The position numbers and the translations under genes are program-made. DNA of 52,770 bases from Gammaproteobacteria bacterium (GTDB lineage: Bacteria; Pseudomonadota; Gammaproteobacteria; Pseudomonadales; Azotimanducaceae), in the NCBI GenBank assembly GCA_009846005.1, contig VXYL01000047.1, forward strand, positions 1 to 52,770. Reading direction: 5' to 3'. The notes under the pieces are model-generated. The model worked only from the letters and a program-made list of their open reading frames with translations. It had not been told where the DNA came from and made no database searches. Shown here piece after piece: positions 31,955 to 36,508 of the stretch (positions are counted from its first letter, which is position 1; each line of letters begins with the position of its first letter).

Positions 31955-32680
31955 ATGAGCCGGAACCGCGCACCTGTTAAGGTGATCCGCCACGTCGACT
32001 TCGAAGGCGTCGGAACGATCGGGGACGAGCTCGCCGATCGCGGCCTTGCATTCGAATACGTCGACCCCACGCGCGAGCCGGTAAGCGTCGCCCGGACGGC
32101 GCATCTCGTGATCGTGATGGGGGGGCCGATCAGCGTCAACGACGTGGATCGCTTCCCCTACTTGGTCGATGAGATCGAGCTGATTCGGCATCGCATTGCG
32201 AACGGTTTGCCGACCTTGGGCATTTGCTTGGGTGCGCAGTTGATCGCGCGGGCATTGGGTGCGGCGGTTGCACCCATGCCCAGCCCGGAGATCGGCTGGA
32301 AGAACCTCATGCTTTCGGTTGCCGGGACGGCGAGTCCGCTATGCCGCCTTGCAAGCCCAGTACTGCATTGGCACGGCGAGATGATCGAGTTGCCGACGGG
32401 ATGTGAGACGTTGGCGTCGACACCGGACTGCGCGAATCAGGCGTTCGCGGTCGGGTGCCACACGCTCGCCCTGCAGTTTCACATCGAGGTCGGCCATTCC
32501 GACCTCGAACGCTGGCTGGTTGGCCATGTCCACGAGTTGGACCATCATGGTATCAGCGTGGCGAAGCTCAGGGACGACACGGTCAAATATTCCCCGGCGG
32601 CTACGGCCGAGGGGCGGGAATTGCTCTCCGCTTGGCTGACCGGCATTCGAATCGACACCCTTGACCGGTCTACCGGGTGA
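31955..32680 (+). CDS. Class I glutamine amidotransferase (GMP synthase-like domain)
   Basis: 241 residues from ATG 31955. A free-standing GATase1 domain: oxyanion-hole region VIVMGGPISV, nucleophile elbow GICLGAQ (Cys91), and the His-Glu pair in LQFHIEVG (His176, Glu178), which together form the catalytic triad. Such stand-alone proteins release ammonia from glutamine or hydrolyse gamma-glutamyl bonds (as the E. coli YfeJ/PuuD-like groups do); the partner or substrate here is unknown. No signal peptide, so cytoplasmic. It is a single plus-strand gene whose last 11 bases overlap tail-to-tail with the GH26-like gene. Confidence 0.9.
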   Translation: MSRNRAPVKVIRHVDFEGVGTIGDELADRGLAFEYVDPTREPVSVARTAHLVIVMGGPISVNDVDRFPYLVDEIELIRHRIANGLPTLGICLGAQLIARALGAAVAPMPSPEIGWKNLMLSVAGTASPLCRLASPVLHWHGEMIELPTGCETLASTPDCANQAFAVGCHTLALQFHIEVGHSDLERWLVGHVHELDHHGISVAKLRDDTVKYSPAATAEGRELLSAWLTGIRIDTLDRSTG

Positions 32681-33791
32681 ACCCCGATTTCCAATCTGCC
32701 ACTGCCCGGGAAAAGCGTTTCGCCAACCGGGCGTTCATTTGCAGCCGGCTGTCTCCCCAATACCCGGCGGCGTAGGGTGGTCCCCACATCGGCTGGGCAT
32801 CCCAGTCGCAGTTGATGTAGGCCAAGGCGCGAACGACATCGCGGTTGTCCTCCAGCAGGTGGAACAGGGGCTCGTACCATGCCCGCCAGATCTCATCGCT
32901 CGACACCGCCGTGAATCCGGTTCCGGCGCCGCCATCCCAGATGGGGCTGATCGAGCGCCGCGCCAAACGCTCGAGATCGAATCCCTGCGGTGCGGCCTCG
33001 GCGATCATGACCGGCTTTGCGGCGGCACGGGCCAGGGTCAACACTTCATCGGCAAGCTCCCTAGGCGTGGCGGGCCGGTGATCGACCGGAACGGAGGGCA
33101 TGGCGTGGGGATGGTGAAACCACGAGAAGGCGAACCAATCCACGTATTCGTCGCCGGGGTAGAAGCGCACAATGTTCTCGCGATGTCCGTCAAGCACATC
33201 GTCGAGCGGCGACGCAGACGCCTGCCAGACGAACTGCACGTTGCCCGCGTTTCGGGATCGCACCGCCTCGACGATGTGCCGGAACGCCGCGACGTAGCGC
33301 GCGGGATCGGCGTAGGCCGCGTTCCAGGCACCGTCGAACTCGTACCCGATGCGCAGATAGACCGTGCCTTCGACCAGGGCAAAGAGTTTCACCAATTTGT
33401 CAATGTTCACGTCGTACTCGCCCGCGATCAGCCGATCGAGCGACCCGGATCCCGTCGTATCGATCAGGTGCAGTCCAATCGCGAGGTCGCGGATAGCGAA
33501 GGCATTGGCGGTTTTGCGAGCGTCAACAGGTCCGGACCCCCATGAGTGTTCCTCGGCAAGGGGTTTGCCGACGTTGTCGAAGCCTATGCCGCCGTAGCCG
33601 GCGGCCTCGGCGCGAAGGTTGAAGAACGACAGGTAGGCGGTCAGGGCGTCGGGGCGCGGACAGCAACCGCTCTCCAGGTAGCCGCGAATGGCATCGAGGT
33701 CCTGCCCGACGATGAAAACAGGCGGCTGGTCGAGAACGGCAGCGTCCTCACCGGCCTCGCAGGCGGCGAGAAGCACCGCCAAGAACCACAT
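32670..33791 (-). CDS. GH26-like glycoside hydrolase lipoprotein
   Basis: About 373 residues from ATG 33791 (a GTG at 33797 is equally possible); the longer frame to 33869 is only repeat sequence. The short N-terminus MWFLAVLLAACEAG reads as a lipoprotein signal with LAAC lipobox, though with almost no charged n-region. The catalytic domain resembles family 26 hydrolases (beta-mannanase group): acid/base Glu in VYLRIGYEFDGAWN and nucleophile Glu in KPVMIAEAAPQG, plus aromatic VDWFAFSWFHHPH. It would cleave beta-linked glycans at the cell envelope. It is last in the operon behind the selenoprotein, separated by a GTAGGGG repeat, so co-transcription is uncertain. Substrate specificity unknown. 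Confidence 0.8.
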   Translation of the reverse strand: MWFLAVLLAACEAGEDAAVLDQPPVFIVGQDLDAIRGYLESGCCPRPDALTAYLSFFNLRAEAAGYGGIGFDNVGKPLAEEHSWGSGPVDARKTANAFAIRDLAIGLHLIDTTGSGSLDRLIAGEYDVNIDKLVKLFALVEGTVYLRIGYEFDGAWNAAYADPARYVAAFRHIVEAVRSRNAGNVQFVWQASASPLDDVLDGHRENIVRFYPGDEYVDWFAFSWFHHPHAMPSVPVDHRPATPRELADEVLTLARAAAKPVMIAEAAPQGFDLERLARRSISPIWDGGAGTGFTAVSSDEIWRAWYEPLFHLLEDNRDVVRALAYINCDWDAQPMWGPPYAAGYWGDSRLQMNARLAKRFSRAVADWKSGFTR

Positions 33792-33798
33792 GGTCACT

Positions 33799-33870
33799 GT
33801 TGGGGCGACCCTTGCGGTCGCCCGTGCCGGTCGTGCCCGGTCAACCGGACGGGACAATCCCGTCCCCAAT
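33799..33870. repeat. GTAGGGG-family repeat overlapping the selenoprotein 3' end
   Basis: GTTGGGGCGACCCTTGCGGTCGCCCG on the left and CGGGACAATCCCGTCCCCAAT on the right; the G-to-T change at one end and the matching CCCCAAT at the other preserve the terminal pairing. The last ten or so codons and the stop of the selenoprotein lie inside it. Confidence 0.8.
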
Positions 33871-34734
33871 GGTTCGTTCAGCCATCAGCCTATCCTCCTC
33901 GGTCTGGTACTGCGGCCTAGTGGTTCGGGGACTGCGGTGATCCAGCTTGCCTTTCTCGCGCTTGCGGACCATGTCCCAGCCGCGCTGCCATTCGAAGGGC
34001 AGGGGCTCGATCCCGGGGGATGTCATCTCATCGAATCCCTTCAACGCCCCGGCCACGACATCGAACTGGTTCTGGCCGTCTCTGAATCGGCCGGATTCGA
34101 ACCCAAGGGGATAGTTGACGAACTTCGCCCGAGGCGGCTTGCCGGCCGTGAGGATGTCCAGGGCGCTACCGAGGATCAGCGTCGGCAGACCCCGCTCTTC
34201 GAAGTGCCGGGCGACCAGACACACGGTCTGGTGGCAAACCGGTCACAGCGGTACCAGGAACAGGAGATCGACACGCGCCTTGGCAATGACTTCGGCGAGG
34301 GTCGGGATGAGTTCCGCCGTCACCCGCTTCTGCGAGTAGATGCCACCCATGCAGGAGTAGTAGTCGTCGGCAAGCTCGCCAATCATGCCGTGGGCGTTGA
34401 GCTTGGCGAGCACTTCCGAGGGGAATACCGTACCGGGATCCTGGCGGGCTTCGACCAGGTAGTTCTCCATGATGTGGGAAAACCGAATCCTCGTCATCGG
34501 CGTGTCGCTGGGAATCGCCCTGACGCTGGTGTCGTCCTTGTAGTAGTAGGCGACTTGGCCCTGAACATAGGTGCCGGCGGTCGAAATCATGCCGAGACGT
34601 GACTCGGCCAGCGGTTTCGATGGCATGGCAAAGGCAGGCTCGGTCTCGGCTTGGAACCAACGATAAGGTTCGAATCCGAGCTTTTCGTAGTTTTCGCGGG
34701 TCTTGCGAATGTACTCGGTTGGCGCTGGTCTCAT
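33841..34734 (-). CDS. Selenoprotein of the glycine/sarcosine/betaine/proline reductase (GrdB/PrdB-like) family
   Basis: One 297-residue frame interrupted by a single in-frame TGA at 34243-34245, read as selenocysteine 164. ATG 34734 has AGGAG upstream. Context of the TGA is LFLVPL-U-PVCHQTV, a UxxC redox pair on a beta-strand-to-helix turn. Reading on gives CLVARHFEERGLPTLILGSA, the continuation expected for this family (one-nucleotide-shifted frames do not). A seven-bp hairpin at 34214-34232 has its loop 17 bases after the UGA with G in loop position two, fitting bacterial SECIS rules. Proteobacterial relatives carry U or C at this site and are thought to be thiol oxidoreductases; the exact reaction is unknown. 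Lies between a CoA-binding protein and a GH26-like gene; the C-terminus runs into a repeat. Confidence 0.88.
34214..34232 (-). promoter_or_regulatory. Bacterial SECIS-like hairpin
   Basis: On the mRNA, ACCAGAC pairs with GTCTGGT around the five-base loop CGUGU (34221-34225). Distance from UGA to loop is 17 nt (reported range 16-37), the loop is 3-14 nt, and a G is present in the first two loop positions, as bacterial SECIS rules ask. It lies within coding sequence, as bacterial SECIS elements must. Confidence 0.75.
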
Positions 34735-34741
34735 GTTGCTC

Positions 34742-35218
34742 CTAGACTGGGCGGCGGCGCTCCGCCGAAATGACCTCGGTGTTGAAACCCAGCCAATGCA
34801 TCCGGCCGACGTGGCGAGCGTGTTCGATCTTCAGGCAACGGTCGACGATGACGTCGATGCCGCCTTCCTTGGCGATCTCGATACCCTCCTGGCTGATCAC
34901 GCCGAACTGCAGCCAGAGATACCGGGCGCCGATGGCCAGAGCCTGCCTCGCGATGTCCGGAACCGCATCCGGTGTGCGGAACACGTCCACGACCCCGACA
35001 GGACCGGGGATGTCGGTCAGACTCGGATAGCACTCGTGACCGAGGATCGAGGTCTCCCGGGGATTGACCGGAACGATCTCGTAGCCGTGCCGCTTCAGGT
35101 AGAAACCGACGAAGTGGCTGGCCCGGAGTTCGTTCGCCGAGAGGCCTACGATAGCGATTCGCCGCTCATCAAGCGCGGCTCGGACAATGCGCGGATCCTG
35201 AAAGGCGGTCAGTTCCAT
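34742..35218 (-). CDS. CoA-binding domain protein (YccU-type)
   Basis: About 158 residues from ATG 35218, which directly follows the GTG at 35221; either may be used. A Rossmann-like CoA-binding fold of the CoA_binding_2 group: RRIAIVGLSANELRASHFVG, GYEIVPVNPRETSILGHECY, VGVVDVFRTPDAVPDIARQA, ARYLWLQFGVISQEGIEIAK and a conserved end VIVDRCLKIEHAR. Such proteins bind CoA or a related nucleotide; their role is not settled. Its start touches the stop of the O-acetylhomoserine sulfhydrylase (35222) and its stop is eight bases before the selenoprotein start, so all three are one operon. Proximity of CoA-binding proteins to O-acetylhomoserine sulfhydrylases hints at thiol/sulfur metabolism. Confidence 0.9.
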   Translation of the reverse strand: MELTAFQDPRIVRAALDERRIAIVGLSANELRASHFVGFYLKRHGYEIVPVNPRETSILGHECYPSLTDIPGPVGVVDVFRTPDAVPDIARQALAIGARYLWLQFGVISQEGIEIAKEGGIDVIVDRCLKIEHARHVGRMHWLGFNTEVISAERRRPV

Positions 35219-35221
35219 CAC

Positions 35222-36508
35222 TCAGCCAATGGCCGCGAGGCCCCGCTCGAGATCCCAGATGAGATCCTCCGCATCCTCGATGCCAACGGATAGACGGATC
35301 GTACCCGGGCCGATCCCGGCGGCGGCCAGTTCCGCGTCACTCAGTTGCCGATGCGTGGTTGTGGCGGGGTGGATCACCAGGCTCTTGGCGTCGCCGACGT
35401 TGGCGAGATGGGAAAACAGGTTGAGTGCGCGGATGAACTTCTGGCCGTCCTCGCGACCACCGGCGAGGTCGAAGCAGAACACCGCCCCGGGGCCGTCGGG
35501 GAGGTACTTGTCCACCAACGGCGCGTACGTGCTATCGGAGAGCCCGGGATAGCTGACCTGAAGGACCTTGTCGTGCCGGGAAAGGTGGTCAGCGAGTGCG
35601 GCGGCGTTTTCGACATGCTTGCGCATGCGCAGTGGCAACGTCTCGATGCCCTGGGCGAACAGGAAGGCGTTGAACGGGCTCATGGCCGCGCCGAGGTCCC
35701 GCAGGGTTTCCGCGCGCAACTTCATCAGGTAGCCGTACGCGCCGAAGGTCTCGTGGAACGCCAGCCCGTGGTAGGCATTGGAGGGTTCGGCCACGACGGG
35801 GAATCGCCCGTTGGACCAGTCGAACTCGCCCGAGTCGACCACCGCGCCCCCTATGCTCGTGCCGTGTCCGCCCAGGAACTTGGTCGCCGAGTACACGACG
35901 ATGTCCGCCCCCCAGGACATGGGGCGACACAGGAACGGCGTTGCGAACGTGTTGTCCACCATGAGTGGCGCGCCGTGATCGTGGGCGATCCCGGCGACGG
36001 CTTCGATGTCGAGTACGTTGCCGCCGGGATTGCCGATGGTCTCGGCAAACAGCAATTTCGTGTTGGGTCTCACGGCCGCCCGCCAACCATCGAGATCGTC
36101 GGGGTCAACGAAGCTGAGCTCCACCGACAGTTTGCGGAACAGGTGTTTCAGCTGGGAGATCGTGCCGCCGTAGAGAGCGGCGGACGAGACCACGTGATCG
36201 CCGGGATCGAGCAGCGTGAAGAAGGCCGCCGTCTGGGCCGCCATGCCGCTGGCGAAACACACCGCCCCGACACCGCCTTCCAGGTTGGCGATGCGTTCCT
36301 CGAGCGCGGCAACGGTCGGGTTCATGATGCGGGAATACGTGTTGCCGTATTCCTGCAGATTGAAATACGCCGCCGCGGATTCCGGATCCTCGAACACGTA
36401 GCTCGTGGTCTGGTAGATCGGCAGCGCCCGCGCGCCGGTGGTCGGCTCCGGTCGGGACCCGGCGTGAACGGAACGCGTGTGAAACCCGAACTCCCGATCC
36501 GTACTCAA
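35222..36508 (-). CDS. metY: O-acetylhomoserine sulfhydrylase (PLP enzyme)
   Basis: About 428 residues from TTG 36508, the usual length for the family; the frame stays open to 36865 but that part is Arg/Ser-rich intergenic sequence. Cys/Met-metabolism PLP fold: GFHTRSVHAGSRPEPTTGA, TSYVFEDPESAA, YSRIMNPTVAALEERIANLE, the phosphate-binding ASGMAA, ETIGNPGG, LMVDNTFATPF, and VVYSATKFLGGHG with PLP-Lys210. It makes homocysteine from O-acetylhomoserine and sulfide in the cytoplasm, part of methionine synthesis, and may also use selenide or methanethiol. First gene of the operon with the CoA-binding protein and the selenoprotein. A 10-codon upstream frame (36537-36505) ends with a TGA overlapping this TTG. 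O-succinylhomoserine sulfhydrylase is the main alternative. Confidence 0.93.
   Translation of the reverse strand: MSTDREFGFHTRSVHAGSRPEPTTGARALPIYQTTSYVFEDPESAAAYFNLQEYGNTYSRIMNPTVAALEERIANLEGGVGAVCFASGMAAQTAAFFTLLDPGDHVVSSAALYGGTISQLKHLFRKLSVELSFVDPDDLDGWRAAVRPNTKLLFAETIGNPGGNVLDIEAVAGIAHDHGAPLMVDNTFATPFLCRPMSWGADIVVYSATKFLGGHGTSIGGAVVDSGEFDWSNGRFPVVAEPSNAYHGLAFHETFGAYGYLMKLRAETLRDLGAAMSPFNAFLFAQGIETLPLRMRKHVENAAALADHLSRHDKVLQVSYPGLSDSTYAPLVDKYLPDGPGAVFCFDLAGGREDGQKFIRALNLFSHLANVGDAKSLVIHPATTTHRQLSDAELAAAGIGPGTIRLSVGIEDAEDLIWDLERGLAAIG

Follow-up and report, generated by a model that had tools for sequence, protein, structure and literature searches.

On the minus strand of the window, by which the whole analysed stretch of 52,770 nucleotides is meant, the open reading frames 34243-34734 and 33841-34224 form one frame that is interrupted by a single TGA. 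This agrees with the sequence-only reading, which had described two same-frame minus-strand open reading frames one TGA apart; the TGA is codon 164. When it is translated as a residue, a product of 297 residues followed by a terminal TGA is obtained, with U at position 164 in the context LFLVPL-U-PVCHQTV. The product, which had been described beforehand as continuing as one protein, matches the PrdB model TIGR04483 (E 7.9e-27). An annotation that takes UGA as a stop only would split the gene in two, and the active-site pair would be lost. The features of the locus are collected in Table 1. The neighbouring genes were predicted with a hexamer-scored caller; picking the longest open reading frames chose frames on the wrong strand in this G+C-rich DNA. 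The exact start of the MetY gene is uncertain. Directly downstream of the predicted selenoprotein gene and on the same strand, a frame at 32670-33797 encodes 375 amino acids, for which a Pfam search at E 0.01 gave no match.

Table 1. Features of the locus in the window, with two related genes of a distant genome
Feature	Position	Strand	Evidence or remark
Predicted selenoprotein gene, PrdB/GrdB-like family, 297 aa	33841..34734	(-)	ATG 34734-34732; terminal stop TGA 33843-33841
In-frame UGA, predicted Sec 164 of U-P-V-C	34243..34245 (34245-34243 as read)	(-)	U/C alignment of homologues
SECIS-type hairpin	34214..34232	(-)	stem 34232-34226 with 34220-34214; loop CGUGU 34225-34221
CoA-binding protein (PF13380, CoA_binding_2)	34742..35221	(-)	Pfam E 1.5e-38; 7 nt upstream of the predicted selenoprotein gene
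MetY-type O-acetylhomoserine sulfhydrylase	35222..36508	(-)	TIGR01326, 612.9 bits > cut-off 495.1; first of the three-gene cluster
Class C genes L257 and L258 of genome G230	G230:C1:2204878-2205645, 834642-835364		in-frame TGA

Two other sources of the in-frame TGA were considered. A genome-wide reassignment of UGA was ruled out, because TGA terminates 22 of the 40 predicted open reading frames of the window (the UGA at 34245-34243 being counted among the 22). A sequencing error was ruled out because the TGA repeats across separately assembled genomes, and it is also countered by the presence of TGA in paralogues of other classes in the single-contig genomes G012, G013 and G053.

Codon 164 among the homologues

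Across 97 genomes, the window's own included, 147 matches were found in 56, and 145 of these matches, counted by hand, carried one in-frame TGA, two of the 145 together with a TAG. Of the remaining two, the G042 match is a Cys copy and the G001 match a fragment from the 3' end. This would mark a gammaproteobacterial lineage that uses selenium recurrently in PrdB-like proteins. In the fetched contexts, which include some contigs twice, the TGA was situated at the Sec position in 100 of 101. Among the 42 rows of close relatives (L002-L031, the window's gene included, and L050-L061; seven rows are repeated contigs) the codon aligned to 164 was TGA in 41, and the remaining row, L059, breaks off ahead of it. 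From the named genomes the best 80 of 134 relatives were used, and within these the codon was TGC or TGT in all 68 rows L062-L129, which come from Bradyrhizobium, Rhodopseudomonas, Acetobacteraceae and others. The Cys homologues resemble the window protein in their similar length, in the PVCHQTV motif and in an identity of about 30-36%, and differ from it in the replacement of TGA. U or C was therefore what the homologues aligned with residue 164, a comparison that had been proposed from the sequence alone. In an alignment of 35 proteins C164-P-V-C-H-Q-T-V was invariant (C standing for U); L096 was omitted from it because of an internal stop. In this Cys-type homologue from a Rhizobiaceae MAG (L096:5001-5261) the frame runs into the stop near residue 87 of the stretch that was matched. 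A sample of the phylum comprising 398 genomes gave matches at E 1e-10 in 16 of them. The 19 matches consisted of the two of the window's own genome and two in G230, all four with TGA, and 15 without a stop. G230 is a distant genome within the phylum and consists of a single contig, and its two class C genes (Table 1) stand with their in-frame TGA among otherwise Cys-type relatives.

In class A, the paralogue class to which the window gene belongs (see below), the same codon was TGA in 15 of 15 rows, the window included, at identities of 57-100%. Between the window gene and four members of its genus (L003-L006) dN/dS was 0.09-0.16 before the UGA and 0.09-0.18 after it. For L011, L016 and L017, where dS was finite but near-saturated, the values were 0.08-0.18 before and 0.13-0.25 after; the seven class A pairs left over gave no estimate of dS for at least one side of the UGA. 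This indicates that the part behind the UGA is constrained about as much as the part in front of it, with purifying selection acting on both. Homologues that end or decay after the UGA, for which the sequence-only reading had advised to look, were not encountered, apart from the copy of the genus member G001 with its further breaks (a TAG and a frame break besides the TGA). In this genome (L144:10750-13473) the frames of both MetY and the selenoprotein gene are broken, by assembly error or by decay.

The standard code would terminate the frame at codon 164, with GTG 34224 as a possible start of the second open reading frame, and the locus would then be a pseudogene or encode two separate proteins; the additional damage in the G001 copy could be read in the same way. 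Such a true stop is hardly credible given the retention of the UGA in all 15 class A rows and the low dN/dS of 0.09-0.18 behind it in the genus. The Cys homologues carry a sense codon at this site and the hairpin described below covaries, while a restart at the GTG would remove the invariant UPVC motif. On these comparisons it is practically certain that the UGA is decoded and that one full-length protein is made.

The hairpin and the selenocysteine machinery

Behind the UGA the transcript can fold into ACCAGAC-CGUGU-GUCUGGU, a hairpin of seven pairs with a loop of five bases. The stem starts after a gap of 10 nt and the loop at nucleotide 18 after the UGA; the seven base pairs and the 17 nt between UGA and loop that had been given beforehand were both exact, and the hairpin folds in the window sequence. 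All seven pairs were present in 27 of the 33 distinct UGA rows versus 3 of the 65 distinct Cys rows, the latter from the best 80 of 134 relatives, a difference that follows in part from the protein sequence. In a synonymous-codon test 6.82 of 7 pairs were formed versus 5.46 in the shuffles, and the mean fraction of shuffles that were equally good was 0.24. This result is mildly unusual only, pairing being favoured already by the protein sequence, and covariation is the stronger evidence.

Covariation was assessed over 77 distinct UGA contexts from four paralogue classes. Of the stem cells 92.4% were paired, versus 70.0% in shuffles, and sliding one side of the stem by 1-3 columns left 18-42% paired. 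Two-sided changes amounted to 121 cells versus 31.8 in shuffles and the covariation score was 0.591 versus 0.153, whereas two other measures were level with the shuffles (5 versus 4.2 pairs that change on both sides; 13 versus 12.0 further pair types). The stems of the classes lie equally far from the UGA and are quite different in sequence (ACCAGAC/GUCUGGU, AUCAGUC/GACUGAU and GCGUAC/GUACGC); the outermost pair is unformed in class D. The earlier suggestion that the hairpin fits the bacterial SECIS type gains from this covariation. An Rfam scan of 33000-35500 returned two matches, both far below their gathering scores. The covariance model R1 gave strong matches in the window's own genome to the two PrdB-like genes only (E 1.2e-11 and 2.1e-10), both of which are members of its training set. 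The next match had an E of 0.75; no further selenoprotein was shown by this search of a genome in which others may exist.

The sequence-only reading required SelA, SelB, SelC and SelD to be encoded elsewhere, and all four were found over cut-off in the window's own genome (G000; 106 contigs, 97.16% complete, 2.43% contaminated). Single matches were obtained for SelA (contig C6, 475 bits), for SelB (contig C6, 377 bits, beginning 48 bases past the end of the SelA match), for SelD (contig C72, 246 bits) and for tRNA-Sec (contig C92, 69.5 bits versus a gathering score of 47). ARAGORN reported a tRNA-SeC with anticodon tca (TCA in DNA; UCA). The selD gene (L047:1501-2403; G000:C72:17291-18193) lies inside an open frame of 755 amino acids and may represent a fusion of SelD to another domain. 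The formate dehydrogenase that was over cut-off in this genome has no internal stop. SelB was over cut-off in 57 of the 97 genomes, the window's own included, and by hand tally these were 50 of the 56 genomes that bear the gene versus 7 of the 41 that do not. The six that bear the gene and have no SelB over cut-off (G005, G031, G033, G043, G055 and G056) are draft assemblies in 90 to 550 contigs.

From this combination UGA 164 is very probably read as selenocysteine. There is a slim chance that it is decoded as cysteine instead, by way of thiophosphate or a mischarged tRNA-Sec, or through another suppressor: the inserted residue is not tellable from sequence, and the homologues have Cys at the site, so cysteine chemistry would probably be workable. 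Against it argue the complete SelA/SelB/SelC/SelD set, the SECIS-type hairpin and the fact that selA and selB adjoin the gene in G081. Selenocysteine would be inserted at UGA codon 164 by SelB and tRNA-Sec under the direction of the hairpin, which begins 10 nt further downstream, with SelA and SelD supplying Sec-tRNA and selenophosphate.

Family membership and paralogue classes

The best family for the protein was NCBIfam PrdB TIGR04483, with 94.2 bits versus a cut-off of 300 (89 bits in the genome search) and a match that covers profile positions 17-235 of 238. The GrdB-type models were weaker and all below cut-off, GrdB itself with 24 bits versus 602, and GrdB PF07355 reached 17.8 bits, which is below the Pfam gathering score of 22. 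With PrdB of D-proline reductase the protein thus shares homology over nearly the whole profile and the UxxC motif; it differs in its score far under the equivalog cut-off, in its 297 residues versus a profile of 238 and in its gene neighbours. To selenoprotein B of glycine/sarcosine/betaine reductase (PF07355, TIGR01917/01918) the likeness is weak and partial, at positions 277-374 of 431 together with UxxC; here the window protein is below every cut-off and shorter than the profile. PF09338, which we take to be the family covering PrdA, had zero matches in G000 and likewise zero in the control genomes, so the search had no positive control.

By these scores the protein is assigned to the GrdB/PrdB superfamily with UxxC, and not to authentic PrdB or GrdB. 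The designation 'GrdB/PrdB-like' of the sequence-only reading stands at the level of the superfamily and fails for PrdB or GrdB proper, the scores being far below the cut-offs. It is quite improbable that the gene encodes the true catalytic subunit of a D-proline reductase (PrdB) or of a glycine/betaine/sarcosine reductase (GrdB). Such an identity would account for TIGR04483 as the best family, its extent over the profile and the common UxxC; it is opposed by the bit scores, by the neighbours in the window's genus (MetY and the CoA-binding protein) and by the lack of a PF09338 match in the 97%-complete genome, in a search without positive control.

In the Sargasso Sea set, 'PrdB' with Sec in UxxC ranked third in abundance among the known selenoprotein families, with 42 genes (Zhang et al., 2005; PMC1088965), and in the GOS set 'PrdB' comprised 235 Sec genes and 110 Cys homologues (Zhang and Gladyshev, 2008; PMC2398784), according to the available portions of these papers. 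Proteins of this general kind have been in print since 2005; therefore the window gene belongs to a known kind, to which it adds one more. It was matched by description only to these marine 'proline reductase PrdB' selenoproteins (Sec in UxxC, PrdB/pfam07355). Gene context and paralogue classes, which are treated in the present analysis, are absent from the portions of both accounts that were available.

In an AlphaFold model (mean pLDDT 77.9, pTM 0.82) residue 164 follows a strand (157-162) and precedes a helix (167-180). As modelled, this strand-helix junction is a usual place for a redox or nucleophilic residue. A sequence search of the PDB gave a best E of 0.43, and Foldseek of the model against the PDB gave zero matches at E <= 0.001. 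The product would be a protein of the PrdB/GrdB superfamily in which the helix begins with a redox pair, U164-x-x-C167. Its selenolate could attack a small substrate at an electrophilic sulfur or carbon, after which Cys167 would resolve the adduct and a dithiol donor would re-reduce the pair.

Four UGA-bearing paralogue classes, A, C and D among them, are present in the gammaproteobacterial family of the window. In a tree of 116 proteins, with an unsettled bootstrap and two unsure long rows, class A had Sec in 19 of 19 and a mixture of U and C was present within class C only. Four U/C label changes were needed, three of them forced by well-supported branches. With the PrdB model just two matches were obtained in the window's own genome, the class A gene of the window and a class C gene (G000:C16:57731-58453). 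The class C gene (L146:8696-9583) bears a UGA, is 36% identical and has its own hairpin. The class D paralogues (L160:8800-9957, L163 and L164) are extended at the C-terminus, and their stem differs completely in sequence; the proteins are 381-403 amino acids long in these three, the starts of others being unsure. Of these, L160 was compared with Pfam GRDB and exceeds the gathering score of 22 with 35.3 bits. In a PrdB-like gene of G035 (L183:673-711, minus strand) the UGA is followed by PLD instead of PVC, which gives U-x-x-D with an intact hairpin, and the resolving Cys seems to have been lost in this sequence, which is one of the long, unsure rows of the tree.

Gene neighbourhood and possible function

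The order MetY, CoA-binding protein, selenoprotein was found at seven of seven class A loci in the window's genus (the window, L130-L133, L144 and L145). In G081, from another family of the same order, the genes run selenoprotein, CoA-binding protein, MetY, with selA and selB adjoining on the other strand, and its MetY is 58% identical to that of the window. In the tree the G081 copy groups with that of G060, apart from the window's genus, which, as far as the sequences go, agrees with two independent joinings or with a transfer. Among the 30 loci of the CoA-binding protein that were fetched, MetY was present in 26 and the selenoprotein in 7; therefore the selenoprotein seems to have joined a pre-existing pair of MetY and CoA-binding protein. 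At 13 of 21 distinct class A loci (L134-L139, L141-L143, L054, L055, L056 and L060; L061 repeats the contig of L137) neither MetY nor the CoA-binding protein was found in the examined stretch, and the same holds for 68 of 68 Cys homologues within the best 80 of 134 relatives. The neighbourhood points to a functional tie, not strongly, and the link is not general, because 13 of the 21 distinct class A loci are without these neighbours. No report of the MetY/CoA-binding/selenoprotein cluster was found among open-licence papers judged by title.

We lean slightly towards an accidental neighbourhood, with the protein acting as a reductase of general thiol-disulfide or detoxifying function that has no connection with methionine. 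Apart from the class A loci that lack the neighbours, this accords with the Cys homologues, which stand in other contexts and are followed by a CoA-transferase-like gene (named by eye) in 6 of 68 cases (within the best 80 of 134). It is countered by the occurrence of the trio in two gene orders, with MetY at 58% identity between G081 and the window, which suggests two separate assemblies. A tie to methionine-sulfur assimilation or to CoA-thiol chemistry, as suggested by the operon partners in the window's genus, is doubtful by comparison; the protein might, for example, free or reduce the sulfur donor for MetY, which is a guess of about the same weight. In its fullest form, which is rather unlikely, the proposal would be that a branch of PrdB/GrdB without a pyruvoyl partner serves sulfur or CoA-thiol metabolism, as an enzyme that depends on selenium and provides or regenerates the sulfur donor of MetY in methionine synthesis, and that it is one of at least four Sec paralogue classes diversified within one uncultured gammaproteobacterial family. 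The name 'PrdB' implies proline reduction, to which the gene context lends no support; the cluster with MetY and the CoA-binding protein provides a starting point from which the function of such 'PrdB' proteins can be tested. In G081 (L140:5933-12160) selA and selB are divergent from this cluster, and the machinery is thereby located beside a gene that needs it.
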